Source: a virus. Taken from it: a DNA stretch of 61,732 nucleotides. The stretch covers positions 1-61,732 of IMG/VR virus record IMGVR_UViG_3300005466_000003. One strand, written 5' to 3'. The notes beneath the pieces are model-generated. The model saw only the letters and a list, made by a program, of their open reading frames with translations, had not been told where the DNA came from and made no database searches. Below are positions 1 through 55,531 of the stretch, in pieces; position 1 is the first letter of the stretch; each line of letters opens with the position of its first letter. The position numbers and the translations under genes are program-made.

Positions 1-110
1 CGACTTCAGGAGCGCAAGGCGGGCGCTGTCTATCGCCTGGACGACCTCCAGGTGCGCTTTCTTCTCATCCTCCGCTTTGCGTATCCGCTCCAGCACACTG
101 ACCAGATCCG
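1..110. repeat. Terminal redundancy, left copy
   Basis: These 110 bases are identical to the last 110 bases of the window (61623-61732). The reading frame of the tape measure gene is continuous across the joint, so the window is one full turn of a 61,622-bp circle. This may be an assembly overlap of a circular or permuted genome, or a short real terminal repeat; the sequence alone cannot separate these. Confidence 0.95.
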
Positions 111-2403: not shown

Positions 2404-2405
2404 AG

Positions 2406-3320: not shown

Positions 3321-3332
3321 GGTTCTCTCCTC

Positions 3333-3611: not shown

Positions 3612-3619
3612 AGGTCACC

Positions 3620-4897: not shown

Positions 4898-4918
4898 TTC
4901 TTCAACCTAGTCCTTATC

Positions 4919-4933
4919 TGCCTGTTTTAGGCA
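4919..4933. repeat. Short palindrome upstream of major tail gene
   Basis: TGCCTGTTTTAGGCA is a perfect 5-bp-arm inverted repeat with a GTTTT loop, between the major tail gene start and the HNH gene. Partial copies of the CTGTTTTAGG core are at 28056-28066 (inside a gene) and TTGTTTTAGG at 48699-48708 (upstream of an early gene). Its role is unknown; it could be a short hairpin, an operator, or the HNH recognition site. Confidence 0.4.
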
Positions 4934-4950
4934 CAAATCCTGCTTGCTTG

Positions 4951-4970
4951 CGGTATAATAAAGAAGGGGG
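4951..4970 (+). promoter_or_regulatory. -10 box and ribosome site of HNH gene
   Basis: A TATAAT hexamer (4954-4959) lies just ahead of an AAGAAGGGGG ribosome-binding stretch, 7 nt before ATG 4978. No good -35 box is visible. The spacing would put the transcript start almost on the ribosome site, so this is only a candidate promoter. Confidence 0.35.
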
Positions 4971-4977
4971 TTGGCAA

Positions 4978-5790
4978 ATGGCATTTGTGATTGATCGCTT
5001 TGAAGCGAAGGTGAAAATAGGCGGGCCAGATGACTGCTGGGAATGGCAAGGTGCCAATTCTGGAGCGAGGCGCGGAAAGCCATACGGGCACATATTTTGG
5101 AACGGACGCCTTGAGAAGGCACACCGGGTTGCCTTTGCGTGGTTCCACGGCCGAGAGATCACGCCTGGCCTGGAAGTCATGCATACCTGCGACAATCCTC
5201 CCTGCGTAAACCCAGCACATTTGAAAGAGGGCACTCACCGACAGAACATGCTGGACGGGCACGCGAAAGGCCGCGTAACAACCGTCATCCCGACTCCGCA
5301 GAGCATGGCGAAACAACGCGCTAACACGCCTCGCGGCGATCAAAGCCCGATGAAGCGACCCGAGGTGCGCCAGAAGTTCAACGGTGAAGCGAACGGAAAC
5401 GGGAAGCTGACCCGAGAGCAGGTCAGAGAGATTCGCCGACTGCGTTCCGAGGAAGGGCTGACACTTACCGCGCTCGGCCAGCGGTTCGGCGTCAACCACT
5501 CGATGATCGGCTTTATCGTCAGAGGTGAAGTGTGGCCGGAAGAAGGAGATCTGCGTCAGCCAACGATTCGGCCGAAGCGGAACGTGCGCGTTGAAAAGCC
5601 GCTGACCATGCCGCAGAAGAGCCACAGAGGAGAGAGCAACGGGAACAGCCGCCTGACCTGGGAGGATGTGCGCGAGATCCGACGACTGCGTGCGGAAGAA
5701 GGACTGACGCAAGCGGCCATCGGTGCCAGGTTCGGCCTGCACCAGGCTAACGTCTCTCAAATCCTGCTCGGGCGTGTGTGGCGTGAATAG
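4978..5790 (+). CDS. HNH homing endonuclease with two C-terminal HTH repeats
   Basis: A 270-residue nuclease encoded against the direction of the surrounding tail genes, as a free-standing mobile gene would be. The N-terminal half holds an HNH_3-type core: WEWQGA, AHRVAFAWFHG, then MHTCDNPPCVNPAHL, with the paired Cys and His of the beta-beta-alpha metal finger. The C-terminal half holds two tandem 50-residue modules beginning GE.NGN..LT and continuing VREIRRLR.EEGLT...(L/I)G.RFG, which look like helix-turn-helix DNA-binding units. The first in-frame ATG is 4948, but ATG 4978 has the strong ribosome site. It presumably cuts phages lacking the insertion and spreads by repair. Confidence 0.9.
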   Translation: MAFVIDRFEAKVKIGGPDDCWEWQGANSGARRGKPYGHIFWNGRLEKAHRVAFAWFHGREITPGLEVMHTCDNPPCVNPAHLKEGTHRQNMLDGHAKGRVTTVIPTPQSMAKQRANTPRGDQSPMKRPEVRQKFNGEANGNGKLTREQVREIRRLRSEEGLTLTALGQRFGVNHSMIGFIVRGEVWPEEGDLRQPTIRPKRNVRVEKPLTMPQKSHRGESNGNSRLTWEDVREIRRLRAEEGLTQAAIGARFGLHQANVSQILLGRVWRE

Positions 5791-5990
5791 CCCCAACGCC
5801 ATCTGCTGCGGCATTGCGTTCGTCCCTCTGAGAGTGACCCGTAAGCCTGGATGGGTCACCGGAATAGATCAGATGCGCGTCCCGGAAAGGCTGAAGGAAC
5901 GCGGCTTTCCTGTCTCCTCGTCGTCTGCGATATAACCAGAGTGCGCGACCGAACCCGACCTTGCGTCCGGTGTAGGCCGCGCCTCTTTTG

Positions 5991-6446
5991 TCAGGAGAGC
6001 CTTTGCACCCGGCTCTCCAGTTCAACCCCAATCGTCGTGTAGACCATCGTCCCCTCTGTTTCAGGCGGAAGCTGTCTGACCGCCCGCCGGAACCACGGTC
6101 CCACGTAGTAGGTCTCTGCACCGATGCTGACGTTGCCTGACTTCCCCCGTAGCGCTTCATCAATCCGGTCCTGAAGCTGATAACCCACGGTCAGGTCACG
6201 GCCCTGCACCACCGCTCGCACCCAGTAGACCGGCATCGAGAAGATCGTCACCGTCGCCGGGAGCGCGTTCCGGTCCAAGAAAGAGAGCGGCCCGAACGAC
6301 ACGAACGGCATGACCGCGCTCTGCGGCACCAGAGAATCAGCGTAGAGCCGTGGCGCTGCAGAACCGCCGATCAAGGCGACCAGCGCCGTATCAGCGAGGA
6401 GCTTCTCGGTCACGAAGCGATCTGTGGCCCGCCGCTCGTTAGCCAC
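5991..6446 (-). CDS. Tail terminator / tail completion protein (DUF3168-like)
   Basis: A 151-residue protein following the HK97 gp10-like gene, the standard place of the tail terminator, which caps the tail tube and joins it to the head. The body (LLADTALVALIGGS, FVSFGPLSF, VGYQLQDRIDEALRG) has the DUF3168/gp17-like pattern of an N-terminal helix, beta strands and a C-terminal strand ending in VGVELES-like residues. GTG at 6446 is preferred because AGAGG precedes it; it overlaps the stop of the gp10-like gene. Confidence 0.72.
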   Translation of the reverse strand: MANERRATDRFVTEKLLADTALVALIGGSAAPRLYADSLVPQSAVMPFVSFGPLSFLDRNALPATVTIFSMPVYWVRAVVQGRDLTVGYQLQDRIDEALRGKSGNVSIGAETYYVGPWFRRAVRQLPPETEGTMVYTTIGVELESRVQRLS

Positions 6447-6792
6447 GGCCTGCCTCTTTCGCCGCCTCATTCATCGCTGCCGCTACCACGTCAGGCAGCT
6501 TCTCCTTCGCCTCTTCCATCGCCGGCGTCAGGAAGGGCTGCGGAGCGCGTCCCTTTGAGCCGTACTCGACGTGAGCCGAGTAATCCGCCTCGGAAACGAC
6601 GGCCCATCGCAGCTCGCCTTCCTGCTCCTTCGTGATGTGATCCCTGAGGTAGCCGGTGCGCACAGGCGCTAATCCCTGTGCCCGCTCGACTGTCTCCTGC
6701 GCCAGCTTCTCGGCCGCCTCGTCCAGCTTCCGGTCGGTCAGCTCGGCCAGGCGGTAGAGCGGCGCGGTATTCAGGACGAACTTTAAAGCCAT
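6439..6792 (-). CDS. HK97 gp10-like head-tail connector
   Basis: A 117-residue protein of the HK97-gp10 family. N-terminal helices are rich in Glu/Ala, then the family signature APVRTGYLRDHI, then YSAHVEYGSKGRAPQPFLTPA, where the 'Tyr-Gly-(x)n-PQPFL.PA' end is typical. It acts at the head-tail interface or tail completion stage. It overlaps the next gene by 8 nt and abuts the preceding stop, so it is translationally coupled in the head-tail block. Confidence 0.88.
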   Translation of the reverse strand: MALKFVLNTAPLYRLAELTDRKLDEAAEKLAQETVERAQGLAPVRTGYLRDHITKEQEGELRWAVVSEADYSAHVEYGSKGRAPQPFLTPAMEEAKEKLPDVVAAAMNEAAKEAGRG

Positions 6793-7640
6793 CAGTTGAC
6801 AGCCTCTGTAACCCTTCCACGGATGCGGATAATCCGCACCTGGAGCGTATGGATCTGTCCCAGCCCATCTTTTGCCTGCACGTCGATAAAGAACCGCTGC
6901 GGCGTTCGGAGGAGCTGCGTATCCTCGGCGCTAATGACCACGTGCCCTGTTCCAAGCGCCGTATCATCAAGCACGATCCCGCCGCCCGTGAGCGTTTTCA
7001 CGAACACCGCGTCGGCATCGCTGTCTCGCAAGGATCGCTTCAGCGAGGACCAGAACTCGATCCACGCGTCAATCGGCTGCGGGTCACCGTTAGTCTTCAG
7101 TACCTGAAAATCAATGATCTCGTCGTTCCCGGCGTGGATCTGTAACTCGGTAGCTTCGGGATAGCCGGTGATCGCCCGCCCGCGCACCGAGAGCGTAGCC
7201 TGGCTGTTCTGGCCGGACGCATCACCTACCAGGATCACCGTGCCAGTCCCAGCTAGAAGCTGCAGCGAGCCCGCGCCGGCAGAGAGCGCCGCAATCCCTG
7301 GCTCCAGGCTGGCACTGCCGCCCGCCAGCGTCAACGCCGCTGCAGTCGCCGTCAACGTACTGGCTCCCGGCGCGACCGCTGCCGTGCCGCCCTGAAGCGT
7401 CATGATCCCTGCCGTCGCCGTTAAGGTCGCCTGACCGGGGACTGCTGTCGCCGTGCCGCCCGCGAGGGTCATGACTCCGGCATTGGCAGTCAGGGTCTGC
7501 GATGGGAACGCCTCGGGGATCGCGCCCTTGATCAGCTCGCCCGCCTTGAAGTAGCTGAAGCTGACCGTCGGCGTTAGGCCCCGGTTATACGGGTACAGCT
7601 CGCCGCTGCCGAAGTAATCGAAGGTGCGCGGATCAGCCAT
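6792..7640 (-). CDS. Virion protein with four Ala/Gly/Thr-rich 23-residue repeats
   Basis: A 282-residue structural-region protein. Residues about 47-140 hold four tandem units of about 23 residues with the pattern LTATAG.MTL.GGTA...PG. The C-terminal half is a beta-rich domain containing DFQVLKTNGDPQPID and FFIDVQAKDGLGQIHTL, which resembles domains of phage baseplate or upper-collar proteins that bind other virion proteins (inference). It sits between the beta-helix protein and the head-tail connector, so it may be a whisker, fibre or head decoration. Not assigned to a known family. Confidence 0.7.
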   Translation of the reverse strand: MADPRTFDYFGSGELYPYNRGLTPTVSFSYFKAGELIKGAIPEAFPSQTLTANAGVMTLAGGTATAVPGQATLTATAGIMTLQGGTAAVAPGASTLTATAAALTLAGGSASLEPGIAALSAGAGSLQLLAGTGTVILVGDASGQNSQATLSVRGRAITGYPEATELQIHAGNDEIIDFQVLKTNGDPQPIDAWIEFWSSLKRSLRDSDADAVFVKTLTGGGIVLDDTALGTGHVVISAEDTQLLRTPQRFFIDVQAKDGLGQIHTLQVRIIRIRGRVTEAVN

Positions 7641-9142
7641 CAGGCCACTCCGAGCGTGTCATACCAGCACTTTCCAGAACCGCCCGCCGAGCGGCTCCTG
7701 AGCCGGAGCGTCACCCATCCCTTCGCGTTCGGCGTGAAGGCGGCAAAGGTCAGGGTCTCATAGGCCGAGCCGGCTGTCCCCGCCGCGGTGACCGTCTGCG
7801 TGGCGACGCCAATCTCACTCGTTGCCAGGAGGATCGCCTGCGGCTTGTTCGTATCGGCGTGGGTCGAGTCCCATTTGACCTTGATCGAGAGCGTCGTCGA
7901 AACCGCGTCGACCGGAATGAGGATTTCCTGATCGGCAGGCCCGGTCAACTCCAGCGCGACGCCGGTGCCGCCGTCGGCGTTAGCGGCGCTGCTCTTTACG
8001 GCGGTATCGTGGCGCTCCAGCGGTCCGACCGCGTTCAAGGTGCTGCTGCCGCCCGCCGGGCGAGGGCGGCTCCTGAAGTCGGTAGTGATCCCGACCGACT
8101 GGTTGCCAAAGCCAAGTGCGGGGCTGTCAAAGGTCGGCGTCATGAAGACGCGAGGGAGCCGCCCCTGCTGGTGCGCCTGGCCGACCTCAAAAAGGAACGC
8201 GGTATTGTTGTTCGTCTTCGAGTTCGAGCCGACGTTCACGTTCGTCCGCTGCGTAGCCGCCCAGATCAGGTTGTAGTCCTCGGTGATCTGTCCCAACGTT
8301 GCTGCCGCCAGCGCCGTTCCGAAGCCGTAGAAGACGTTGTTATAGGCCAGACAGGGAATGCTCGTCGCGATGTTGGTGGCGACGTTGATCCCCGCATTTG
8401 AGGGACAGAAGGAGAGGCTGTTATAGAACTTCAGGCCGCCCGCTTTAAACGAGTTCGCGCCCGAGGCGGAGACGTTGACGCTGCGGCTGCCGCCGTAAAA
8501 CTTGCAGTTGCGCACCTCGATCCCCATGTCGTAGTCGGCGACGGTACTGGTCGCGGCGACGACGTTCAACGCGCCCGAGGTCGAGCCGCCCACCAACAGG
8601 CACCGGTCGAGGATGAGATTGACCGCTGTATCAGCGGCGACGGCGACGTTGATCAGCGGCGCGGTCAGGGAAGCGTTAACGAGGTTGCAATCGGTGAGCT
8701 TGATTGCGGTGGAACCGGACGGAATATCCACGCAGTTGGGCGTGCCCGTCCCGCCGTGGAAGGTGATCTGCTGGAAGGTCAGATTATCGCGGGTCGCTAG
8801 AGATAGCAGGATCGAGGCGCTCGGGGCGCTCACGTCATTGGTCAGGTAGCCGGAATGGCGCACCTCGCCGGGCGTGAGGAGCACTCCCGATCCGTCTTTG
8901 AAACCCTGCCCGTTCTCGATATCGCCGATGACAAACGTCTCGGCCACCGCCGAGGTCATCGCGACCGTGACGATCTCACGGTAGACGCCGGGAGCGATGT
9001 AGACCGTATCGCCCGAGGCGATCCCCGCCGCGCCGAGCGCTTTCGCGATGGTCCGCCACGGCTTATTGCTGGCGTGGCTGGCATCCGGTCCCTGGCCGTT
9101 ATTGGCATCACTGCCATTTAGACTCACATAGAAGGTAGCCAC
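7640..9142 (-). CDS. Right-handed beta-helix virion protein (DUF1565-like)
   Basis: A 500-residue protein. It begins with a DUF1565/pectate-lyase-like N-terminus (FYVSLNGSDANNGQGPDAS, then PWRTIAKAL and GDTVYIAPGVYRE). Repeated short strands rich in Asn, Val and Ile follow, as in parallel beta-helix proteins. The last 120 residues (AAGTAGSAYETLTFAAFTP onwards) form a separate beta-sandwich-like domain. Such proteins in virions bind or cleave surface polysaccharides. No catalytic residues can be named with confidence, so enzymatic activity is open. It overlaps the next gene by one base. Confidence 0.8.
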   Translation of the reverse strand: MATFYVSLNGSDANNGQGPDASHASNKPWRTIAKALGAAGIASGDTVYIAPGVYREIVTVAMTSAVAETFVIGDIENGQGFKDGSGVLLTPGEVRHSGYLTNDVSAPSASILLSLATRDNLTFQQITFHGGTGTPNCVDIPSGSTAIKLTDCNLVNASLTAPLINVAVAADTAVNLILDRCLLVGGSTSGALNVVAATSTVADYDMGIEVRNCKFYGGSRSVNVSASGANSFKAGGLKFYNSLSFCPSNAGINVATNIATSIPCLAYNNVFYGFGTALAAATLGQITEDYNLIWAATQRTNVNVGSNSKTNNNTAFLFEVGQAHQQGRLPRVFMTPTFDSPALGFGNQSVGITTDFRSRPRPAGGSSTLNAVGPLERHDTAVKSSAANADGGTGVALELTGPADQEILIPVDAVSTTLSIKVKWDSTHADTNKPQAILLATSEIGVATQTVTAAGTAGSAYETLTFAAFTPNAKGWVTLRLRSRSAGGSGKCWYDTLGVA

Positions 9143-9144
9143 CG

Positions 9145-9405
9145 CTAGAACTCACTCTCGGTGCCGTCGTCCAGACCGGCCCGCATCATGATCAGCCGCC
9201 GGATCACCGACCGCAGCAGGGAGCGGCGCTGCTTCACGGTGAGCGTGCCGAGTGCTGCAGGAAAGACAACCGCATTCGCGCCGGTCAGGTCCGCGATCAG
9301 CGCGTCGGTCAGCCCCTCGGTGACGCGGCAGGAGACCTGAAAGCGGTTGACGGTGATCGCCGCGTCGGCCAGGTCGGTGATCGTCAGGTCGCGGATATTT
9401 GCCAT
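9145..9405 (-). CDS. Small virion-region protein of unknown function
   Basis: An 86-residue protein without a recognised domain. The N-terminus (IRDLTITDLADAAITVNRF) is a regular alternation of acidic and hydrophobic residues. The C-terminus (KQRRSLLRSVIRRLIMMRAG) is a basic amphipathic helix. It is in the middle of the head-tail operon with short spacing to both neighbours, so it is probably structural or a small assembly factor. Confidence 0.68.
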   Translation of the reverse strand: MANIRDLTITDLADAAITVNRFQVSCRVTEGLTDALIADLTGANAVVFPAALGTLTVKQRRSLLRSVIRRLIMMRAGLDDGTESEF

Positions 9406-9410
9406 ACCCT

Positions 9411-9857
9411 TTAAGTGATCTGCAGGACAATGCCTGATGTGAAATTAAGCCCAATATCCCCGCCATTAGTCGCCAGTCCCGTCGCGTGGACATCGAGCGC
9501 CGCGATCAGAGGAGAGGCCGCATCGGAGGTGATGTGCTTGTAGACGATGGCCCATTTGATCGTCGCGCCGGCCGCGAGCCCGGTCCAGGTCAGGTTAGCG
9601 GCGGTGAACTCGCCCCGATCGTTAGTGTCGTTCACTACGAACGCCTTCGTGCCCAGAGTCTTCCGTCCCGAGCCCGCGAAGCCCGGCGTGTAGCCGGTGA
9701 CGCTGATCTCGGACGCGGCCGGGGTATCGGCGAAGTCATCGTCAGCGTTGGGCGTATAGCCGGTCCCAACGAGCATGACCTTCAACGTGTCACTGGTTAA
9801 GTCCAGGGTTCCATCAAGTAAGAGACCCTTTGCCCGGTTGTAGACCGTATTCGCCAT
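9411..9857 (-). CDS. Phage structural protein (beta-rich, 148 aa)
   Basis: A protein of the type found in many phage structural cassettes: YNRAKGLLLDGTLDLTSDTL, then VMLVGTGYTPNADDD, a Gly/Thr-rich middle, and a hydrophobic end with GLNFTSGIVLQIT. The pattern suggests a beta-sandwich virion or decoration protein. No enzyme motif. A ribosome site (GGAGATAG) precedes the ATG. Confidence 0.78.
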   Translation of the reverse strand: MANTVYNRAKGLLLDGTLDLTSDTLKVMLVGTGYTPNADDDFADTPAASEISVTGYTPGFAGSGRKTLGTKAFVVNDTNDRGEFTAANLTWTGLAAGATIKWAIVYKHITSDAASPLIAALDVHATGLATNGGDIGLNFTSGIVLQIT

Positions 9858-9868
9858 GCTCTATCTCC

Positions 9869-10687
9869 TCACGCCAGCGCCCGCACAGCCGGCGCCCAGT
9901 ACCGTTCGGTGAACCGGACTGGCTGGTCGGGGTCCGGCAGGTTGTGCAGCCAGCGCGGATCGTTTCCGGTGGTGGTAAGCGAGCTACTGGTCACCGTCTT
10001 CCCGAACCCGGCCAGGTAGGTTACAACCCGATCCATGTGGGTCGAAGGAATGCGAGTGTCACCCTGATCGTGATACAGGAACAGCTTCCCGGTGAAATTC
10101 TCTAGCCCGGTCACCGGGAGGCGGGCGGCATAGTTGGCCGGGACCGCCGCCGGAGTGCCGCCAATCCGGCTCTCTAACAATGCCTGATCGGCCGCGCTCT
10201 CACTCCACCACGCCGCGTAGTCGGTCACGCCGAAATGATCGACGCAGACCTGAAAGACGGAAGGGAACCGGGACGCGCAGGAGATAGCGTTCCCGCCACC
10301 GCCTGAATAGCCGATGATCGCCGCGCCGGTGCGGCTGGCACCCGGATAGCGCAGTCGCGCCTCACTGACCGCATCAATGATGTCCTGAAGCTCATCGAGC
10401 CCCGCGTCTGCTGTTCCCGAAGCGCCATCCCTGCCCCGCATTCCCGGCACGACGACGAACAGGCCGAGGCGAGCGATCCGCTCCAGGGAAGCGGCGGTAA
10501 AATCGGACGCCTGCTGGTTCCAGCCGTGCATCAGGACCGCGACCGGACAGCCTGACGCTTCCGGGTAGACGACGCGGGCGAACAGGTTCGAGATCGCGGC
10601 AATCGTCGAGCTATACGTAAAGCTCTCGGCGCGGACCGCTCCGAAACCCCGCTGAGCGAACAGCCGCCGGTCGTGATAGAGCGGCAT
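9869..10687 (-). CDS. Alpha/beta hydrolase (esterase/deacetylase type) in structural operon
   Basis: A 272-residue serine hydrolase. The nucleophile elbow is GYSGGG with Ser128. HGW at 54-56 is the oxyanion hole. Asp210 in HDQGD and His248 in WLHN complete a plausible triad, as in dienelactone hydrolase or acyl-peptidase-like folds. There is no signal peptide. It lies between two virion proteins with 3 and 11 nt gaps, so it is probably carried on the particle, for instance to deacylate a capsule or surface polymer during infection (inference). The preceding gene ends 2 nt before its start. A metabolic role is less likely given its place. Confidence 0.87.
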   Translation of the reverse strand: MPLYHDRRLFAQRGFGAVRAESFTYSSTIAAISNLFARVVYPEASGCPVAVLMHGWNQQASDFTAASLERIARLGLFVVVPGMRGRDGASGTADAGLDELQDIIDAVSEARLRYPGASRTGAAIIGYSGGGGNAISCASRFPSVFQVCVDHFGVTDYAAWWSESAADQALLESRIGGTPAAVPANYAARLPVTGLENFTGKLFLYHDQGDTRIPSTHMDRVVTYLAGFGKTVTSSSLTTTGNDPRWLHNLPDPDQPVRFTERYWAPAVRALA

Positions 10688-10689
10688 CG

Positions 10690-11226
10690 TCAGTCCACCA
10701 GCAGCCGGGGCGTGAACTCCCAGATTTCCCCGGAGACGGGCGTGTAGGCGTTTTTCACCTGGATGCGGCCATACAGCTTCGTGTCAGCGGGAGCGCATTT
10801 GTAAAGGATGTTCAGCCCCGAAAGGTCATAGACGCAGTTGACCTCACTCCCCGACGCGCCCGCGCCGAGCGCGACCGAGAACGGCAGCACTGCCACCAGG
10901 GTGCGGTTCACGGTCGAGTTGGCGTTCCAGATCCCGTTATCAGCGAGGGGGGTAGAGGTCGTGTGATAGAGCCGGAGTTCGGCGGAAAGCTTGGTCGCGG
11001 GCGAGCTGGAACAGGTGACGAGCAGCCCGGTGATTGTCCCGCCCTGGCCTGGCGCCGAGGCGCAGCCGGCAAACTGGAGGATCAATCCCCCGGTGTCGGT
11101 CATCTCGTCGCCCACGGCATACGGCGTGACCGTGGCGGGCCGCGTCAGGGTCGCCACTGGCGTCGTGGTCGTGCTCTCGCCGCCGACGGCGATATCTGCC
11201 CGCCCCGGATTACTTCGCTGCGCCAT
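10690..11226 (-). CDS. Structural protein of unknown role (178 aa)
   Basis: A Thr/Ala/Gly-rich beta protein. It starts with a low-complexity segment (ESTTTTPVATLTRPATVTPY), followed by DTGGLILQFAGCASAPGQ and a C-terminal strand region with YGRIQVKNAYTPVSGEIWEF. Similar small beta proteins near the head-tail joining genes of other siphoviruses are virion components. I cannot name a specific family. Confidence 0.7.
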   Translation of the reverse strand: MAQRSNPGRADIAVGGESTTTTPVATLTRPATVTPYAVGDEMTDTGGLILQFAGCASAPGQGGTITGLLVTCSSSPATKLSAELRLYHTTSTPLADNGIWNANSTVNRTLVAVLPFSVALGAGASGSEVNCVYDLSGLNILYKCAPADTKLYGRIQVKNAYTPVSGEIWEFTPRLLVD

Positions 11227-11228
11227 GG

Positions 11229-11609
11229 TCAGTCCACCCTTCGCAAGCTCACCGCGATTACCGCGCTGTCAGTCGCGGCACCGCTATCATCCACGACCTC
11301 GTAGCGCACCTCATTGACCATCAGCGCGTCCTGGGGCCGCACGTCGGTCCCTACGGGCAGATAAGCAGTCCACAAGGTCACCGATACTACCCGCCCGCCT
11401 TCCGTCCGTTCACTGCCAATGGCCGAGGAAGAAGACTGCGCGGCCAGCCGGCACGGTACCGTCGCGACTACCGCCTCGGTCTCGGTCTGACCCCCTTCCG
11501 CGTTTGCGACTCGGGTCGTCCGCATCACCTCGGCGGTATCGGTATGAAACTGTGCCGCCTGGCCCTTCAGCCAGGTCAGGCGTCCTCTGGCAATCTGTGA
11601 GACAGCCAC
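11229..11609 (-). CDS. Head-tail adaptor / head closure protein
   Basis: A 126-residue protein with the pattern of the SPP1 gp16 / Phage_H_T_join family: Arg/Thr-rich early strands, a mid-region MRTTRVANAEGGQTETE, a loop with PCRLAAQSSSS, then LPVGTDVRPQDALMVNEVRYEVV. Proteins of this family close the head after packaging and provide the docking surface for the tail. It follows the gp6-like connector gene by 1 nt. Confidence 0.8.
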   Translation of the reverse strand: MAVSQIARGRLTWLKGQAAQFHTDTAEVMRTTRVANAEGGQTETEAVVATVPCRLAAQSSSSAIGSERTEGGRVVSVTLWTAYLPVGTDVRPQDALMVNEVRYEVVDDSGAATDSAVIAVSLRRVD

Positions 11610-11610
11610 G

Positions 11611-12030
11611 CTAGGCTCCCCTTCGGCCAGCGGCGAGCCAGAAGTGATTAGGCGGCAGAACCGCGCCTGTTGTGCTGGTGTTTAAGGCCAGCTCGGAGGC
11701 GGCCTGCGCCCGTAATTGCGCGGCTTTGGTGACCGGATCGAACTCCTTCAACTGGTAGCGCAGATCGCCTTCCTGAAAACTGGTCAGGTTCGGAAGCGCC
11801 GGGCACAATCTGGCCGCAGTCAGGAGGGCGACTGCATTTTGCGCCCGGCGCAGCTTCGCGTCGTCGGTGTAGGTCGCCGCCAAGGGATCGCGGGCGAGCA
11901 CCTCATCCGCCGCCGCATAGGCGTACTGCGTCTGAATGATCACCTCGTCGGGCAGACCCGCCGCGTCGAGCGAGGTATCTAGACAGGCGCGGACCTGTGC
12001 GTAAAGATCAGCGGTCAGCAGGTCTGCCAT
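11611..12030 (-). CDS. Head-tail connector, gp6/gp15-like
   Basis: A mostly helical 139-residue protein starting MADLLTADLYAQVRACLDTS. Helical arrangement, length and order (major capsid, small proteins, this, then head closure) match HK97 gp6 / SPP1 gp15-type adaptors, which form a ring beneath the portal. The central region TYTDDAKLRRAQNAVALLTA is a typical amphipathic helix. The C-terminal end extends as a flexible Asn/Thr/Ala segment. Confidence 0.72.
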   Translation of the reverse strand: MADLLTADLYAQVRACLDTSLDAAGLPDEVIIQTQYAYAAADEVLARDPLAATYTDDAKLRRAQNAVALLTAARLCPALPNLTSFQEGDLRYQLKEFDPVTKAAQLRAQAASELALNTSTTGAVLPPNHFWLAAGRRGA

Positions 12031-16734: not shown

Positions 16735-17205
16735 TCAGCGCGTGCCCGCTGTTCCAGTGACAGTGATATAAGCGCTGTGCCCTGCCGCCTGGCACTCCTT
16801 GACGAACTGCACGAGCGCGGCGTTGTCCTCGTTCTGGACTCTCAAGCAGCCGTGAGTCGGAACCCACCCCTGGTGCAGCGCGTAGGGGTCAGAGAGACCC
16901 GTTCCGCCGCCGTGAATGCCGATCCCTGACCGCCCGCCCTTGTGCATCGGCCCGTCATGCGATAAGTCGAACAGCGGCGTGAACCACTCCCCATAGGCCG
17001 GCGCGTGAACGTGCGAGGGTGATCCGAGCAGATATTCGCCGCGTGGACACCAGCCCCACCGGAGGAACCAGCGGCGCACGGTGTCGTTTCGCATCTCGAA
17101 CTCAAGCAGGACGACATTCTGGGCCTGCTGTCGTTTGCGCCAGAGCACGGCCTTATTCGTCTCGTCATTGAAGAGGAGGTGCAGATCGTCGGGACCCAGG
17201 ATCAT
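16735..17205 (-). CDS. L,D-transpeptidase (YkuD-type) domain protein
   Basis: A 156-residue protein whose core is a YkuD L,D-transpeptidase. The signature is GIHGGG, then after about 20 residues THGCLRVQNED, giving the conserved first His, the catalytic Cys and the following Arg. Such enzymes form or exchange 3-3 cross-links in peptidoglycan. There is no signal peptide or membrane helix, so it must reach the wall by lysis, by the virion, or not at all. ATG 17205 overlaps the previous stop as ATGA. It lies between the zinc-ribbon mini-genes and the prohead protease, so it may be a virion or late lysis-related enzyme (inference). Confidence 0.87.
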   Translation of the reverse strand: MILGPDDLHLLFNDETNKAVLWRKRQQAQNVVLLEFEMRNDTVRRWFLRWGWCPRGEYLLGSPSHVHAPAYGEWFTPLFDLSHDGPMHKGGRSGIGIHGGGTGLSDPYALHQGWVPTHGCLRVQNEDNAALVQFVKECQAAGHSAYITVTGTAGTR

Positions 17206-17393
17206 CCTTCCGCCTCGCTCAGGTAGTCCCAAAGGTTGATGAGGACGGTCTCACCCTTCTTGCGGATCTCCAGAATACCGGCCGAAGAGATGCGAAAGAG
17301 CAGCCGCCCGGTCTGGTCGCGCACATCCGTAAAGCGCAGGCCGCGCTCTCGCGGGGACCGCTCGCGGGTTTCTTCTCTTCGCTCATCGGCCAT
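17202..17393 (-). CDS. Small charged protein upstream of transpeptidase
   Basis: A 63-residue protein (start MADERREE, ATG 17393; a TTG 9 nt upstream is also possible) with a highly charged N-terminus and a short beta segment (GRLLFRISSAGILEIRKKGE). It overlaps the transpeptidase gene by 4 nt and so is translationally coupled to it. No known family. Confidence 0.65.
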   Translation of the reverse strand: MADERREETRERSPRERGLRFTDVRDQTGRLLFRISSAGILEIRKKGETVLINLWDYLSEAEG

Positions 17394-24958: not shown

Positions 24959-25503
24959 TTGCGTCGGCTACCCGGCGCGGGCTCCGGTCCCGGCTCAGGC
25001 GCGGGCACCGGCTCGGGCGCGGCGTCGGCAATGATGTTCGAGACGTTCTGCGCCTGCTGGTTCACGTTGTCACGCATCCCCGTCACGCGGTTGATCACCG
25101 GTCCCAGGTCGATGTTCGGGTTCTGGTTGTTCAGCCGCTCCAGCTCGGCCAGGACCTGCTGCGTCTCGTTAGCGACGGCCTGCGCGAGGCCAGTCACGGC
25201 GCTATCTACCTCGTCGAGTGCCGAATTGAGGCTTGTAAGCTGCTCCGACATGTGTTTAAAGCTCCTCTCCTGGGCTTTGCCCAAGCACTGCACCTCCTCG
25301 CGGAGGCATTTCAGGTTGTCGTTGATGATCTGTCCGTAGGCGCCCAGTTGCTGCCCGTAGGCTTTCCACTGGGCGACATCCTCCTTGAGCGTGGCGTTCT
25401 GATGCAGCAGCTCAAGGTTATCCGCCTTCTCGCGGGCCAGCTCCCGCTTCAGGCGCTCGTTCTCCCGCTGGAGACGGAGGTCCATGCCGAAGATCCCGCT
25501 CAT
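24955..25503 (-). CDS. Coiled-coil protein with Pro-rich tail
   Basis: A 182-residue protein starting at ATG 25503 (TAATG overlap with the upstream membrane gene). Nearly all of it is heptad-like coiled coil from LQRENERLKRELAREKADNL to the VNQQAQNVSN region. It ends with PEPVPAPEPGPEPAPG, a rigid Pro-Glu linker. The gene is in the small membrane-protein cluster near terminase. It may be a spanin-like periplasmic rod or scaffold, but lacks an obvious lipobox or transmembrane segment of its own. Confidence 0.7.
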   Translation of the reverse strand: MSGIFGMDLRLQRENERLKRELAREKADNLELLHQNATLKEDVAQWKAYGQQLGAYGQIINDNLKCLREEVQCLGKAQERSFKHMSEQLTSLNSALDEVDSAVTGLAQAVANETQQVLAELERLNNQNPNIDLGPVINRVTGMRDNVNQQAQNVSNIIADAAPEPVPAPEPGPEPAPGSRRK

Positions 25504-25772
25504 TAGCCGAGCCTCACATCCGAAGGACCGGCGGCGGGAAGGTCGCCGCGGGCTGCCGCTCGAGCCTGGGAGTTCTCCTCGTGAACCGCGACCTGTGCGG
25601 AAATCTGGTCGTTCTGCTTCCTCAGGTAGGAGTTTTGCCACGTGTTGAACCCGAGCCACATCGCGCCGATAACTCCCACCAATACGTCGCGCCATTCCTC
25701 GGCGGTCCACGCCTGCGCGTTCGCGTTCGCCGCGTGCGCCACACTTGGCGCTACCTGCCATATCCAGAGCAT
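25503..25772 (-). CDS. Small membrane protein, holin-like
   Basis: An 89-residue protein. It starts with a hydrophobic, secretory-like N-terminus (MLWIWQVAPSVAHA). A transmembrane helix follows (VLVGVIGAMWLGFNTW), then a charged tail with coiled-coil propensity (YLRKQNDQISAQVAVHEENS). One or two membrane passes and a charged end fit holins. Its stop overlaps the coiled-coil gene start. Confidence 0.6.
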   Translation of the reverse strand: MLWIWQVAPSVAHAANANAQAWTAEEWRDVLVGVIGAMWLGFNTWQNSYLRKQNDQISAQVAVHEENSQARAAARGDLPAAGPSDVRLG

Positions 25773-25773
25773 C

Positions 25774-26007
25774 CTAACCTCTCTTCCCTGCCAGCCAGTC
25801 TAACCGCTGCGTTAGGGTCAACAGCCGTGCCTGTTCGTCCTCTCGCGGCACGCCCCGCTGGTCGAGTGCAGCGTGGAACCACGCCACTTCGATTCTCGAA
25901 GCCATCTGTCCCCGCAGGGTATGCTCCGCCTCTCTCATCCGCTCGATCTCCGCTTCGAGGAGGCTGATCCGCTCCCGCAAGGCCCGCATCTCCGAGTCAA
26001 CGCGCAC
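25774..26007 (-). CDS. Coiled-coil mini-protein
   Basis: A 77-residue helical protein (MRALRERISLLEAEIERMRE...), GTG 26007 or ATG 25989 as start. It is predominantly charged heptads. It overlaps the end of the membrane mini-protein upstream. Likely part of the membrane/coiled-coil cassette. Confidence 0.63.
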   Translation of the reverse strand: MRVDSEMRALRERISLLEAEIERMREAEHTLRGQMASRIEVAWFHAALDQRGVPREDEQARLLTLTQRLDWLAGKRG

Positions 26008-26176
26008 GAGTGCCCTGCCGCTCGATCCGCTGGAGCATTCCCTGCTGGTGCCAGAGCGCGACGATGACGGCGAGCAGGATGAGGACCGTGACGCCGTTCA
26101 GATACTCGTTGATATTGAGCATCCGCTCGATTAGCTTCTGATGCGCGATCAGGTACTCGGTCAGATGTGCGGTCAC
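25997..26176 (-). CDS. Single-pass membrane mini-protein (59 aa)
   Basis: GTG 26176 overlaps the preceding stop as GTGA. Residues 28-42 form a membrane helix (VTVLILLAVIVALWH), preceded by an acidic/aromatic N-terminus and followed by a basic Arg-rich tail, a typical N-out or N-in one-pass arrangement. A candidate holin or antiholin. Confidence 0.65.
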   Translation of the reverse strand: MTAHLTEYLIAHQKLIERMLNINEYLNGVTVLILLAVIVALWHQQGMLQRIERQGTRAR

Positions 26177-26544
26177 AGGTCATCCAGCCCTTCCGGCCGT
26201 TCGGGCAGTTCCACGCCCCGCCGGCCGCAGTTCGTTTCTAACCGCCGGACGTATTCCCTGAAGGTATAGATCGCCAGCCGGCGGTTGCGCTCGATTACCT
26301 CTAGCTCCGCGAACCGCCGCTCCAGGTGCTTGAGCTTCTCCTCGTGCTCTTTGCGCTGCTGGCGGAAGTTGTGCAGCTCCTCATCTTTTCTTTTTAGCTC
26401 ATCGCGGACGTAAGCCAGCTCGTCGCGCACCGCTTTGATCGCCTGCTGCGTCGCCCAGGTGCGGCCATTGGCCGCGAGCGCCACCACGCCAAAGAGCGCC
26501 AGTAAGGACGCCGCGAACGAGACCAGCTTTCCTGCGAGTTCCAA
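26173..26544 (-). CDS. Membrane-anchored coiled-coil protein, spanin-like
   Basis: A 123-residue protein starting at TTG 26544 (AGGAAAA before it; the frame has no ATG). Residues 7-25 form an N-terminal membrane anchor (LVSFAASLLALFGVVALA). A long coiled coil of charged heptads follows. This is the layout of an inner-membrane spanin or tail-anchored lysis protein. No outer-membrane partner was identified. Confidence 0.64.
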   Translation of the reverse strand: MELAGKLVSFAASLLALFGVVALAANGRTWATQQAIKAVRDELAYVRDELKRKDEELHNFRQQRKEHEEKLKHLERRFAELEVIERNRRLAIYTFREYVRRLETNCGRRGVELPERPEGLDDL

Positions 26545-26547
26545 TCA

Positions 26548-26850
26548 TTATTTTCCTGGGAACGGCTCGTCACCGTTCTGCTCGCTTTGCCTGGAAAGAT
26601 GGTCCACCTGTGATTCCAGATCGTCCAGACGCTCGGACCAGCGGTTCAGGTCCCAGCGGGTCATGATCTCGCCGACCAGCGCCGGGGGCAGCTCGTGCTT
26701 CATCTCCTCGACGATACCCAACAGCCGCGCCGAAAGAACAGGCCGGGTCTTGTAGAACCAGTACATCAGCGGCACCAGCGAGACGAGCACCGCGACCAGG
26801 ATGAACAGGTTCACCGCCGGAAGCCAATCGGGTGCCGGCACCAGGCGCAC
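26548..26850 (-). CDS. Membrane protein with C-terminal coiled coil
   Basis: A 100-residue protein, GTG 26850 adjacent to the stop of the papain-CAP gene. A membrane helix (LFILVAVLVSLVPLMYW) near the N-terminus is followed by a charged helix that ends in DDLESQVDHLSRQSEQ. It belongs to the run of small membrane genes after papain-CAP. Role in lysis inferred from location. Confidence 0.66.
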   Translation of the reverse strand: MRLVPAPDWLPAVNLFILVAVLVSLVPLMYWFYKTRPVLSARLLGIVEEMKHELPPALVGEIMTRWDLNRWSERLDDLESQVDHLSRQSEQNGDEPFPGK

Positions 26851-28758
26851 CTAAGGAGCGGCCTTCGTCGAGCTGCCACGGTGTATCCCTTGTGTCGCTG
26901 TCACGGTGACCTCCTGACCGCTCGATACGCCTGAAAGCCGCCCCCAGACCTGCCCCCCGTTCACCAGCACCTGTGCCGGGAGCGTCCCACCCACGTCCCA
27001 GGAGAGCGTCGCCGGGATCTCTTCCGCACCCGTCACCTTCACCCCCGCCAAGAGCCCGCGCCTCGGGTCACGGATCAGCGATAACTCGACCGTCAGATCA
27101 CCTGGCGTCGGGTTCGGCTCGGGCTCCGGTCCCGGCTGCGGCTGTGGCTCGGGCTCGGGGCCTGGGTCCGGGTTCGGGCCCGGCGTCACGTTCTGCACCA
27201 GCAGCGTGCCCGTAAAGCCGCCACCGACAGCGGTCAGATTGAGACCCGGCTTTACGAACTCCAGCCCGCCACCTGCCAAAGAGCCCACCACCGTCACCGA
27301 GGAAGGAGGGGTCGGTGACGGGGTGGGAGTCGGTGTAGGAGTGGGCGTAGGCACAGGAGTCGGTGTAGGCGTTGGGAGCGGCTCCGGGGTCGGCTCTGGG
27401 GTCGGTGTGCTGTCCGGTAGCCTGACGAAATCTACGGTCCAATAATTGACGTATTGTGAACCGGGAACCTGGGCGTATCCGACTCCGAAGTGAGTGAAGG
27501 CAGGAAAGAGGATATTCGCCCGATGTCCAGGGCTGTTCATCCAGTCGGTCATCGAACCGCCAGGAGCCTGGTGCTGTTGCTGGTCCTCGTCCGGCGTCAG
27601 GATCACGCCGTTCTGGATCGCACTCACCTGCCAGGCCCCGGTCTTACCGGGTGCCGCGCTCGGATCGGACTGCCCTGCCGCGATGTTCTCACCCCAATTC
27701 GTCCAGCCGCTCGGTAGTCCCGCTGCCGTCATTCGCTGGATCGGCGTCGATCCGTCCGGTCCCTCGTGGCCGTAATGGTTCTTCTGGCCCATCAGGAGCG
27801 CGTAGTCCTGCGCGGCTTTGGTGAGCGCCGGGTGGAGCTTCAACGGCTGAAGTCCTGCCTGCGTACGTGCGGCGTTCGTGAGGCGCAGGACCTCGGAAAC
27901 GAAGTCGGGATTGGGCATAGGGTTTGGCGTCGGTGTTGGCGTTGGGGTAGGTGTGGGCGTAGGAGTGGGAGTCGGGATCGGCACCGGATTCGGCGTTGGC
28001 GCGGCCCGCTGGTCTACCGGGACGACCACGACACAAAGGCCGTTTTGAAAATTCGCCTGTTTTAGGTAGGCATCCGGCACCCAGCAAAGCCCGTTATGAC
28101 CGAAGCCACTGCCCCAGGAGTTGAAACAGAGCTTCGCGCCTGGACGCCAGCCGACGATCAGGTTCTCATGATACCCCTGCGTCATATCCCCGGAGCATTC
28201 CCATGAGTAGTTCGAGGGGATCAGAAACGAGAGCCAGGGTGGCTTCCCGGCCATCAACGCCGCGATGATCGTCGCATCCCACAGGGCATCTTTGTTCACA
28301 TACGCCCAGGCTTCGACGAAGAACCGCTGCTCGCCGTTAGCAACCGGAAAGCCCCGGTCGCGGCCGTATTTCAGTACGTCCTCGGGGAAGCGCCCCTGAT
28401 TGATCGGGCCTGTCTCGGAATGGATGCGCGGCGCGTCGAAGTAGCGCCAGATGCCTTCCTCTTCCTGCTGGAAGACCGACTGACCGTGCGCGGCGGTATG
28501 CGAGCAGCACGAGCCAATCGCGCCCTGATTGAGCGGAGCGCCCTTGATGTATTGCAGCAGGTCGCCTGACTCGGGAGCGCCGACCATCAGGTTCTGGGCG
28601 ATCTTGGGATCGCGGTGCGCTTCCCAGTCGCGGGGATCGGGAGGACGAGGCACGACGCCGGTCAGGAAGTCAGGAACAGGCGACGGTGGCAGCATCTTTC
28701 GCCACGCGTCGATAGCTGCCTGCCATGCCAATCGGTCGTCGAGCGGAGTCGGATGCAC
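26851..28758 (-). CDS. Papain-like protease fused to CAP/SCP domain
   Basis: A 635-residue multidomain protein from GTG 28758 (GGAGAGA before it). Residues 60-245 are a C1-type cysteine protease: NQGAIGSCCSHTAA gives the oxyanion Gln78 and nucleophile Cys84, HENLIVGW holds His197, and FNSWGSGFG holds Asn213. A Pro-Thr linker (about 255-285) leads to a CAP/SCP domain (about 290-450) with VLRLTNAARTQAGL, NWGENIAAG and MNSPGHRANIL. A second long Pro-Thr linker and a beta domain with Pro-Glu-rich loops end the protein. No signal peptide was seen. It precedes membrane genes, so it may act in lysis, in tail fibre or in surface proteolysis. This fusion is unusual. Confidence 0.87.
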   Translation of the reverse strand: MHPTPLDDRLAWQAAIDAWRKMLPPSPVPDFLTGVVPRPPDPRDWEAHRDPKIAQNLMVGAPESGDLLQYIKGAPLNQGAIGSCCSHTAAHGQSVFQQEEEGIWRYFDAPRIHSETGPINQGRFPEDVLKYGRDRGFPVANGEQRFFVEAWAYVNKDALWDATIIAALMAGKPPWLSFLIPSNYSWECSGDMTQGYHENLIVGWRPGAKLCFNSWGSGFGHNGLCWVPDAYLKQANFQNGLCVVVVPVDQRAAPTPNPVPIPTPTPTPTPTPTPTPTPNPMPNPDFVSEVLRLTNAARTQAGLQPLKLHPALTKAAQDYALLMGQKNHYGHEGPDGSTPIQRMTAAGLPSGWTNWGENIAAGQSDPSAAPGKTGAWQVSAIQNGVILTPDEDQQQHQAPGGSMTDWMNSPGHRANILFPAFTHFGVGYAQVPGSQYVNYWTVDFVRLPDSTPTPEPTPEPLPTPTPTPVPTPTPTPTPTPSPTPPSSVTVVGSLAGGGLEFVKPGLNLTAVGGGFTGTLLVQNVTPGPNPDPGPEPEPQPQPGPEPEPNPTPGDLTVELSLIRDPRRGLLAGVKVTGAEEIPATLSWDVGGTLPAQVLVNGGQVWGRLSGVSSGQEVTVTATQGIHRGSSTKAAP

Positions 28759-31710: not shown

Positions 31711-33276
31711 CTATCCCTTGACCACCACAAACGCCGCTGCACCGTAGCTTCCTACCGGAACCGCGAGCCCCTCGGCAGGCACCTTCCCCGCGAAGATAGG
31801 AGCCCCCCACAGGTCAGTAGGATCGAGTAAGCGCACGCTCTGCCCTTCCCACCCGGTGAGCTGCGCCTTCACCTGGCCCGTCTTCTGCCAGTCAGTGACG
31901 ACCAGATGCGCCCGGTTCGTGTCGTACTTGTTCGGCCGGAACGAGACAGTCGGCGTAGTCGGCTTCGCCGAGGGCGGCACGATCAGGTTCCCGTCCACGA
32001 TCTGCCCGCTCCCATCGCCCACGATCTCCAGCGTTCCGTTGAACCAGGTGTTGCGGCTGATCCTGGCCGGCGCCACCGGCGAGGAAGCCACTTGCACCCG
32101 CCCACCCGCGAACAGGTTCCCGATCAGCTCGTGACCCGCCGACGGTGAGGAAGAGAAGCCATCGCTGAACAGGCTCGGCTCGCCGCCGATGACGACGTTC
32201 CCTTCGGCGGTGATATTGCTCAACATCGGGCTCTCGCCATAGATGTGGAACTGGTAGCGGCCCGCCGCGTAGCTGCGCGTGTTGCGGTGGCAGAAGATGT
32301 TCTCTCGAGCATACTTCCGGTAGCTGCCAGGCGGGTTCTGCATGTAAGCGCCGTGGCCGTGGCCTCTGTCTGTCCCGACCCAACCGTTATCACCGATCCA
32401 GCAGCCGTACATCTCGAACTCCCTGGACGGCTGCCAGATCGACGCTCCCTGCCGGTTGCCCTTCCCCTGCTGATCGTTCTGTGCGCCGAGCAAGCAGTTG
32501 ATGCACTTGTTTCCTGCCCCACCCGAGTAGACGTGGATACCGCCGCGAGGACTGCCTGCCGGTGACGGGTTGCTCCCGCTCGTGCCGAACGGCTTCGCTT
32601 CCGAGACGATGAACTCTAGATCCTGCAGCCACACGTCATGACTGCCGCCCCACCACGCCAGCCCGCCGTCAATGATCGCTCGAGCGCCTGGCGCGGCACG
32701 GAACACGAGCGGCTTCGCGGGCGTGCCCGAGACAGTCATCAGGTAGCCGACGCCTTCGCTGTCGAGCTGCGGCGCGTGGTAGGTGCCCGGCAAGAGGTAG
32801 ACGGTGCCGCCCGCCGCAAGCTTTGAGGCGAGCTTCCCGGTCAGCGCGTCCATGATCGTCCAGGGGTTATCCTGCGCTCCGGTGCCGGTTGACTTGGCGT
32901 CGAAGGCCACATAGCCGAGCGTGCCCTCGGGCGTCGGCGTCGGCGGGACTGGGCCGGGAGTAGGGGTCGGGACCGGCGTCGGAGTAGGCGTCGGTGTTGG
33001 GATGGGCGTAGGAACCGGCGTCGGGGTCGGTGCGGCGGCTGGCTCACCCACCAACTCGCAGTAGCCGCCGGTGACGACGGTTTCGGTGAGCACCTGGCGC
33101 GGGACGTTCAGGTTGGGGCGGGTCGTGACCTGCACCTTCCACGACCCCGAGAGCCAGCGGCCGTGCCACTGCTGGCCGGCTCCCGGCGCTTCCGCTCCCG
33201 GCGCGGTCTCCTCGGTCTGGAGCGACGCCAAGACCGGCGCTTCTTCGTTATGGCCGTGGGTTGACTGCTTGTTCAC
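31711..33276 (-). CDS. Beta-helix protein with Pro-Thr linker
   Basis: A 521-residue protein from GTG 33276 (AAGGAG 11 nt before); the frame extends further but into a HNH gene. Domain order: N-terminal segment with WHGRWLSGSWKVQVTTRPN, a Pro-Thr linker of about 40 residues, then a parallel beta-helix from YVAFDAKSTGTGAQDNPW through PGTYHAPQLDSEG and repeated Asn-rich turns, ending in a small beta domain. It resembles polysaccharide lyase or tailspike folds. It shares the Pro-Thr linker style with the papain-CAP gene. Catalytic residues are not identified. It lies outside the tail gene block. Confidence 0.8.
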   Translation of the reverse strand: MNKQSTHGHNEEAPVLASLQTEETAPGAEAPGAGQQWHGRWLSGSWKVQVTTRPNLNVPRQVLTETVVTGGYCELVGEPAAAPTPTPVPTPIPTPTPTPTPVPTPTPGPVPPTPTPEGTLGYVAFDAKSTGTGAQDNPWTIMDALTGKLASKLAAGGTVYLLPGTYHAPQLDSEGVGYLMTVSGTPAKPLVFRAAPGARAIIDGGLAWWGGSHDVWLQDLEFIVSEAKPFGTSGSNPSPAGSPRGGIHVYSGGAGNKCINCLLGAQNDQQGKGNRQGASIWQPSREFEMYGCWIGDNGWVGTDRGHGHGAYMQNPPGSYRKYARENIFCHRNTRSYAAGRYQFHIYGESPMLSNITAEGNVVIGGEPSLFSDGFSSSPSAGHELIGNLFAGGRVQVASSPVAPARISRNTWFNGTLEIVGDGSGQIVDGNLIVPPSAKPTTPTVSFRPNKYDTNRAHLVVTDWQKTGQVKAQLTGWEGQSVRLLDPTDLWGAPIFAGKVPAEGLAVPVGSYGAAAFVVVKG

Positions 33277-33283
33277 GTTACTT

Positions 33284-33725
33284 TTAACTCCTTTGCTTTC
33301 GTGCACGAGGCGATTGGTTGCGCATGCAAGTCCGGCAGCGGCGCAAGCCCCCAGGGGTTCGGTAGGTATTAATTTCGTCGTACGCATGCCCGTTCACGCA
33401 GTGCGCACGACGCCATATCCTTGGGCTTAATCGAACTCCCCAGTTATCGTGCAGCTTCGGATGCTCTGATCGGGTCGTCCAAATCAGATGCTCAGGATTG
33501 ACACAGAGTTTGTTCTCACAGGTGTGATGCGCTATCTTTCCTGGCGGAAAGGCTCCCTTGAGAAACATCCAAGCCCACCGATGAGCGCAATCTTGAACAC
33601 CTCGGTTGTGACCTCCGCTGACATAAGAGCCATATCCGCCTTTGATCCCCCGCCTGCCATAGCCAGCAGCCCGTCGGCTGGACAATAAACTTGCTTTCAA
33701 ATCGAGCCCAGGAGTCTTTTCTCAT
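33284..33725 (-). pseudogene. HNH endonuclease with a frameshift
   Basis: The N-terminal part reads MRKDSWARFESKFIVQPTGC with WLWQAG in one frame. The rest (GGYGSYVSGG, CAHRWAWMFLKGAFPPG, HHTCENKLCVNPEHL, then NGHAYDEINTYRT) reads in another frame. Removing one base from the run of five G on the minus strand (near 33650) restores a normal HNH_3-type nuclease. It is either an inactivated gene, a sequence error, or a frameshifted gene. It overlaps the next upstream gene by 4 nt. Confidence 0.78.
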
Positions 33726-42616: not shown

Positions 42617-44173
42617 ATGTGGATCGGTAGCTATGGCAGGAAATCCCGCGCTCTCGGCGATCCGGAGAATATCGACGTCGTCGCGCACCAGCTCCGCAAG
42701 TGCGATCAGATGGCCCGCGAGGATGGCGTGACGATCCCGCCCGAGAACCGCATCGCGGAGATCGGCAGCGGCGAGAGCCTCGACCAGCGTCCGCGCTTCG
42801 CCCAGTGGCTAGAGCGGTTCGAGCAGTCACCGCCCGTCGGCGGCGGTATCCTCTACTGCCCCGAGGTGTCGCGGCTCTCGCGGGCAGAGTTCGAGGAGAT
42901 CGGCCGCATCGTCCGGGTACTCCGCACCGCCGGTATCAAGATCCGCGTGCCCGGCCACTGCTACGACCTGACGCTCCCGCACGACGAGATGTTCTTCGGC
43001 TATCAGGCGCTGCAGAGCCGCTGTGAGGTGCAGGTGTTCAAGCAGCGGATGTCGGTCAAGCGGGAGGAGCAGCTCGCCAACGGCGATGTCCGTCTCGGCG
43101 CTAAAGCCTGGGGTTATCTCTGGCTCTCGCTGGAGCGGCGGCTCATCGCGCATCCGGAACAGTTCCCGATCCTCGTCGCCTGCTGTGAGGAAGTGCTGAC
43201 GACCTCGATCTATCGCCTCGCGCACCGCCACCACGTTCCGGTGGCGACCTTGTGGACCGCGCTGACCAACCCGACGATCTGCGGCTGGCCCTCTATTCAC
43301 TGGGGCCCGACTGACGTTCCCACGCGCTATCGCCGCTTGTCTCGCGCCGACTGGACCTGGTGCGGGCGGCAGAATGAGACCTACCCGCACGCCTGCACAC
43401 GCGGGCAGTTCGACCTCATTCAGGAGGTGCTGGCGGCACGGAAGGCGAGAGGGCTGAAGACCTCGGGCGTCGGCGGCTGGTGCCGCGATGTCGTCTCCTT
43501 TCCCGAGGCGCCCGGCCCGGTGCGTATCTCCTCCTGCCGCATCGGCACCTATCCGGCGACCTCCGGAGAGGCGGTCTATGAGCGCCGTAGCGCCGAGAAG
43601 AAGCGGGTCGCCTATATCGAGCGGGAGAAAGTCCACGAAGCGGCCTTGCCCGAGGTCAGGGCCGTCCTGAACGATCCCTCCCGCGCCCGGTTGGCCCTCC
43701 AGGCGTACCTGATCCACGAAGCCGAAAGGCAGGCGGCAGACAGCGGCCGGCTCTCGGGTGTGACCGGACGACTGGCTGGCGCGAGGACACTTTACCAGCA
43801 GGCGGTCGACGCGGAGTTCGACGCCAGTGATCTGCTACGCGGGGCACTAACAGCGCGGCGTCTGCGCCTGGAGGAAGAGATCCGCGACCTTGAACAGGAA
43901 GCGCGGCTGCTCCAGAGCCCCGACCGCCACCGGGAGGAGCTGCGCCGCTTGAGCGAAGCACTTCCGGCCGTGGGCGGCACCTTTGATCGGGTCTGGGATG
44001 CGATGCCGGAAGGAGAGCGCCGGCAGGTCATGCGTTGGACGGTCGAAGCCGTGGAGGTGCGCTGCGGTCGGTCGGCGGGCGGAAGGATCAGGGTGCGGGA
44101 GGTAGAGGGAGTACGGCTACAGCCCTGGTTTTCCTTCGACGCCGCCTCTAACCCTTGTCAACTTGACCAGTAA
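42617..44173 (+). CDS. int: Large serine integrase
   Basis: A 518-residue site-specific recombinase of the large serine family. N-terminal catalytic domain: SYGRKSRALGDPEN with Ser10-type nucleophile in YGRKS, GSGESLDQRPRF, then CPEVSRLSRAEFEEIGRI with the conserved SRLSR. A recombinase middle and a zinc-ribbon-like and coiled-coil C-terminal half follow (LLRGALTARRLRLEEEIRDL). Catalysis is by Ser-linked double-strand breaks with no need for host IHF. It makes the phage temperate. GAGGGAAGCGAA precedes ATG 42617. Confidence 0.9.
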   Translation: MWIGSYGRKSRALGDPENIDVVAHQLRKCDQMAREDGVTIPPENRIAEIGSGESLDQRPRFAQWLERFEQSPPVGGGILYCPEVSRLSRAEFEEIGRIVRVLRTAGIKIRVPGHCYDLTLPHDEMFFGYQALQSRCEVQVFKQRMSVKREEQLANGDVRLGAKAWGYLWLSLERRLIAHPEQFPILVACCEEVLTTSIYRLAHRHHVPVATLWTALTNPTICGWPSIHWGPTDVPTRYRRLSRADWTWCGRQNETYPHACTRGQFDLIQEVLAARKARGLKTSGVGGWCRDVVSFPEAPGPVRISSCRIGTYPATSGEAVYERRSAEKKRVAYIEREKVHEAALPEVRAVLNDPSRARLALQAYLIHEAERQAADSGRLSGVTGRLAGARTLYQQAVDAEFDASDLLRGALTARRLRLEEEIRDLEQEARLLQSPDRHREELRRLSEALPAVGGTFDRVWDAMPEGERRQVMRWTVEAVEVRCGRSAGGRIRVREVEGVRLQPWFSFDAASNPCQLDQ

Positions 44174-52167: not shown

Positions 52168-52179
52168 CTCTCTCTTCCT

Positions 52180-55530: not shown

Positions 55531-55531
55531 G

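Follow-up and report, generated by a model that had tools for sequence, protein, structure and literature searches.

What does a phage do with a papain-like protease that is fused to a CAP/SCP domain? The question is raised by a single gene in the window, i.e., the whole stretch of 61,732 nucleotides analyzed here, which corresponds to the IMG/VR virus record IMGVR_UViG_3300005466_000003. The termini of this record consist of an identical repeat of 110 bp and the tape-measure gene runs in frame across the join, so that the record, with a genome size of about 61.6 kb, is very probably complete. The genome also encodes a GTA-like siphovirus tail module, a terminase, a portal protein and a serine integrase. 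Relatives of the terminase and the capsid proteins are found in phages of unrelated hosts, including Microcystis, Brevundimonas, Caulobacter, Achromobacter and others. Within the tail region an ORF for a prolyl-oligopeptidase or esterase-like enzyme was observed (9869-10687, minus strand; PF00326, E 5.8e-14).

The GTG start codon of the papain-CAP ORF is preceded by a GGAG-type ribosome-binding site, GGAGTGGAGAG. In codon usage, all three parts (papain, CAP, C-terminal) resemble the phage core genes and lie far from antisense or shifted frames, so that the ORF is a real gene. The same codon usage does not support a host-derived passenger with foreign composition. The positions of all features are compiled in Table 1.

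Table 1. Features of the papain-CAP locus and further genes of the window.
Feature	Position	Strand	Remarks
Papain-CAP fusion gene	26851..28758	-	635 aa, GTG start
Papain-like (C1) domain, residues 1-250	28009..28758	-	jackknifed profile, invariant columns, fold match
Pro-Thr linker 1, residues 251-285	27904..28008	-	sequence
CAP/SCP domain, residues 286-446	27421..27903	-	PF00188, alignment
Pro-Thr linker 2, residues 447-486	27301..27420	-	sequence
C-terminal part, residues 487-635	26854..27300	-	weak single-sequence prediction
100-aa protein	26548..26850	-	N-terminal membrane segment and coiled coil, hydropathy 2.48; holin/spanin-like candidate
123-aa membrane and coiled-coil protein	26173..26544	-	hydropathy 2.42; Rz-like candidate
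59-aa single-pass membrane protein	25997..26176	-	hydropathy 2.02; holin candidate
77-aa coiled-coil protein	25774..26007	-	
89-aa protein, hydrophobic N-terminal half	25503..25772	-	below the membrane-segment threshold used
YkuD-fold protein	16735..17232	-	PF03734, E 8.2e-8; candidate alternative or partner lysis enzyme
Serine integrase	42617-44173		
Tail module	about 1-12000 and 51600-61700		

The papain domain was not detected by Pfam with PF00112 alone, and single-sequence searches of viral contigs found nothing closely related to either the full-length protein or this domain. A jackknifed profile of 22 relatives from viral contigs and genomes, with the papain-CAP protein left out, was run against 2,924 sequences, namely ORFs of the window and shuffles. 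The papain-CAP protein was recovered with an E-value of 3.1e-21 (73 bits) and the next-best match had an E-value of about 4. A second profile, derived from 13 of the phage relatives of Mufasa8 gp26, ranked the protein first of the 2,924 sequences, albeit weakly (E 7.6e-4). A mixed alignment of papain and CAP sequences was excluded, because the two domains were mis-joined. The C1-type relative lineage matches C1 enzymes of the PDB at 1e-18. Gln78, Cys84, His197 and Asn213, which had been named as catalytic residues from the single sequence, are invariant in the alignment of 23 homologous sequences and follow the C1 catalytic order; in a set of more distant phage sequences, two have Gln in place of Asn213. 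An alignment-guided AlphaFold model of residues 1-252 is of moderate confidence (mean pLDDT 66, pTM 0.67). Its top Foldseek match is xylellain (3OIS, E 7.9e-10), followed by cathepsins and mite proteases, with TM values of about 0.5-0.6 to 3OIS and many cathepsins. Profile and xylellain-like predicted fold agree with the papain call of the original prediction, and the N-terminal domain can firmly be assigned to the papain family (C1) as a predicted protease.

Two unusual arrangements were observed among the papain-like proteases. In the viral contig L022 (312-2585; contig shared with L159) an intein-like insert interrupts the protease immediately in front of the active-site Cys (GSC / VHN-CTAN); splicing would thus have to precede any activity. 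In L035 (5122-6177, on a contig of 512 kb) a Pro-Thr repeat is inserted within the catalytic domain.

The assignment of the CAP domain is certain from sequence comparison: PF00188 matches residues 291-444 with an E-value of 3.9e-21 and 76.5 bits, compared to a curated cut-off of 21.1, as the initial CAP/SCP call had implied. The cavity residues His331, Glu357 and His412 are invariant among four aligned phage CAP domains, and ahead of the SPGHR motif the protein carries about 35-40 extra residues relative to the other three. The Pro-Thr linkers proposed at the outset are present on both sides of the domain. For the third, beta-type domain postulated downstream, the outcome is divided. Residues 487-635 are probably beta-rich, as strands are weakly predicted from the single sequence (pLDDT about 50), but their status as a domain is unproven: Pfam gave no family match, a comparison with the other proteins of the window gave no convincing one, and a Pro/Glu-rich stretch (residues 528-553) lies within this part. 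An alignment-free structure prediction for the entire protein was of low quality (pLDDT 35). Phages frequently carry CAP domains: they occur in 18 deposited records, and viral contigs gave 135 candidate places, 80 of them retrieved.

Hydropathy analysis confirms that small membrane and coiled-coil genes follow the fusion gene. The gene order runs from papain-CAP over three membrane proteins of the single-pass type, of which two bear long charged or coiled-coil tails, and coiled-coil proteins to ParB/methylase, small and large terminase and portal. Putative lysis genes ahead of the terminase are reminiscent of Mu-like phages, which we regard as a lead. The 123-aa protein has a weak Rz-like PHROG match (E 0.004), the 100-aa protein none. 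Neither holin, spanin nor endolysin was recognized with confidence in this genome by Pfam and PHROGs. Pfam found no lysozyme, amidase or glycosidase endolysin over nearly all ORFs of the complete genome, and there is no standard endolysin among the PHROG matches listed for the remaining ORFs; divergent lysins can escape Pfam. Peptidoglycan-related domains occur in a tail NlpC/P60 protein and, outside the tail, only in the YkuD-fold protein, for which tblastn returned no phage relative and which could be the true lysin. The papain-CAP protein itself has neither a signal peptide nor a membrane segment. The same leftward gene run contains a beta-helix-like protein with Pro-Thr linkers (31711-33387, minus strand).

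The gene neighborhoods of the papain relatives were compared. The first direct link of the papain domain is Mufasa8 gp26, annotated as cysteine protease, whose relatives are stand-alone papain-like proteases in 58 deposited phage records. In Mufasa8 the lysin A gene lies three genes from the papain gene and a neighbor is annotated as membrane protein/holin. The Gordonia phages Mareelih, GMA2, Aleemily and Lilbeanie show the order lysin A, protease, holin, two of them with lysin B. In four IMG/VR contigs (L016, L028, L151, L157) the papain gene has an endolysin or transglycosylase gene nearby, in L151 with an Rz-like gene on the other side. Papain genes away from lysis genes were found in mycobacteriophages, Streptomyces phages and jumbo phages. 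By gene order, they lie between terminase and portal in three contigs (L015, L018, L020). In L155 and L156 they belong to tail-fiber clusters, in L155 with large structural-looking proteins. In L156 (4738-6438) the papain domain is fused to collagen-like repeats and a tail-fiber-like end (PHROG tail fiber, E 9e-36).

The original prediction had proposed a search for the same domain pair in other viruses, and no other papain-CAP protein turned up in any record searched. A second fusion in one ORF was absent among 160 loci, as well as among the best matches from 386 genomes of one phylum (seed: a cyanobacterial MAG) and from 396 genomes of another (seed: Streptomyces); in these 782 genomes the best three candidates per genome were scored, so rare fusions could be missed. 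Four Streptomyces genomes (L123 to L126), three of them close relatives, carry a separate secreted papain-like gene adjoining a sigma-factor-CAP gene. A comparable plan with a different protease occurs on two putative viral IMG/VR contigs, which encode subtilase-CAP proteins (L053, 3348-5354; L088, 3450-5360) with an Amidase_2 gene at a distance of about 2-3 kb. The protein of L088 has an apparent signal peptide and may therefore be secreted rather than released by a holin. On a further contig (L090) one protein combines lysozyme-like, LysM, PG-binding and chitosanase-like domains with CAP. On these three putative viral contigs CAP thus appears to recur as a C-terminal module of envelope-directed enzymes.

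We infer that the papain-CAP protein serves as an accessory lysis protease which is released via a holin and in which CAP is the module contacting the envelope; we assign this reading a probability of about 0.5. The enzyme, a papain-type cysteine endopeptidase, would be synthesized in the cytoplasm at a late stage of infection and, as it has no signal sequence, be retained there until its release by one of the small membrane proteins whose genes immediately follow. Once across the membrane, it would be held to the envelope by the CAP domain on its flexible Pro-Thr tethers, and there the papain domain would cut envelope proteins or peptide cross-links. No other reading accounts as well for the absence of a signal sequence together with the order of the genes and the relatives. 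It is supported by the papain relatives within annotated lysis cassettes, by a complete genome in which no standard endolysin was found, by the recurrence of the protease-CAP pairing with an unrelated protease near Amidase_2, and by the joining of CAP to lysozyme-like, LysM and PG-binding domains in L090 and to LysM in phage Slash (PMC3861416). It is weakened by the lack of a confidently recognized holin, spanin or endolysin, by the papain relatives at terminase-portal junctions and in tail-fiber clusters, by the apparent signal peptide of the L088 protein and by the candidate YkuD lysin. To our knowledge, the function of CAP in bacteria is moreover poorly understood, which weakens the reading as well. 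With other papain relatives not located beside lysis genes, it is favored but unproved. The lysis protease of the original prediction hence stands as the best-supported reading through the cassettes of the relatives and the gene order, with a role in the virion as a less probable alternative.

Such a virion-associated protease, which would belong to a fiber, spike or decoration of the particle and cut or bind a surface protein at entry, is the main competitor, though we consider it unlikely. The papain-collagen-like tail fiber of L156, the structural-looking surroundings of L155 and the nearby beta-helix protein with Pro-Thr linkers are in its favor; however, the papain-CAP gene lies outside the tail module, ahead of the small membrane genes and the terminase, and no trimerization, collagen-like or tail-attachment domain was found in the protein. 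Improbable is a moron whose secreted or released product would provide the lysogen with a protease, at the surface or outside the cell, that has no part in lysis. Most CAP proteins are secreted, the genome encodes a serine integrase and Streptomyces genomes carry adjoining separate CAP and papain genes, but the missing signal peptide and membrane segment do not fit, and the gene is read in the same direction as those that lead up to the terminase, with a codon usage like that of the phage core.

An intracellular protease for capsid maturation or host takeover, as the papain genes between terminase and portal on three contigs might suggest, is very improbable, since CAP and the Pro-Thr tethers suit extracytoplasmic work and the sole tie to capsid genes in this genome is the upstream position. 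We hold it for equally hard to believe that the protein is the sole endolysin, its C1 domain cutting stem peptides or cross-bridges of peptidoglycan in place of a normal lysin. In its favor, no standard endolysin was found, lysin A proteins of mycobacteriophages contain N5 domains of the papain family (PMC3314691) and weak fold matches to Lysin A of MOOREtheMARYer and the endolysin of OneUp were obtained. Known cassettes, however, pair a C1 protease with a separate peptidoglycan hydrolase, and here a YkuD gene is present and a divergent lysin may have escaped Pfam.

The expectation of a new lysis strategy as such exceeds the evidence, as papain-like proteases of phage lysis cassettes are already annotated or published, among them the N5 domains (PMC3314691) and a cysteine-protease-like endolysin in the lysis cassette of phage BetterKatz (PMC4982276). 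Papain-CAP is rather a new combination of known parts, each half of which is already known in viruses. A broader notion, to which we give little credence, is that several phage lineages independently built protease-CAP lysis effectors, in which CAP would target the protease to the envelope and release would rely on the digestion of envelope protein, in place of or in addition to that of peptidoglycan. If the lysis reading is right, phage lysis gains a step in which protein is digested by an enzyme with its own envelope anchor, phage CAP domains, which lysin surveys currently treat as unrelated annotations (PMC13237592), obtain a testable role, and protease-CAP modules become a searchable class of antibacterial enzymes. 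Even if the lysis reading is wrong, an intact and unusual predicted papain-CAP enzyme in a complete phage genome remains.

Several known systems resemble the protein in part. It shares a homologous papain domain and the invariant Gln, Cys and His with the phage-encoded stand-alone cysteine proteases, e.g., Mufasa8 gp26, Mareelih gp109 and XacN1 ORF382, which are often part of lysis cassettes; these differ by their size of about 210-270 aa, their single domain without CAP or Pro-Thr linkers and an identity of 16-24%. Xylellain of Xylella fastidiosa, the C1 protease with the best solved fold and sequence-profile match, is in contrast a bacterial single-domain enzyme. Cwp84 of Clostridioides difficile, a C1A protease which matures the S-layer protein SlpA (PMC5842191), likewise contains a papain fold in a multidomain surface protein (4CI7; a weaker fold match at rank 16), but it is a secreted host protein with lectin-like and cell-wall-binding domains and without CAP. 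Cwp84 demonstrates that S-layer proteins can be substrates of papain-type enzymes; by analogy, the S-layer target suggested in the original prediction is possible for the papain-CAP protein, but at most that. On the CAP side, Bacillus phage Slash gp103 (LysM/SCP) has a phage-encoded CAP domain with 33% identity, but LysM as partner instead of a protease and a position outside the lysis cassette (PMC3861416). The subtilase-CAP proteins of L053 and L088 share the plan of a protease followed by CAP with an amidase gene nearby, but their protease is a serine protease of the S8 family and unrelated to papain.
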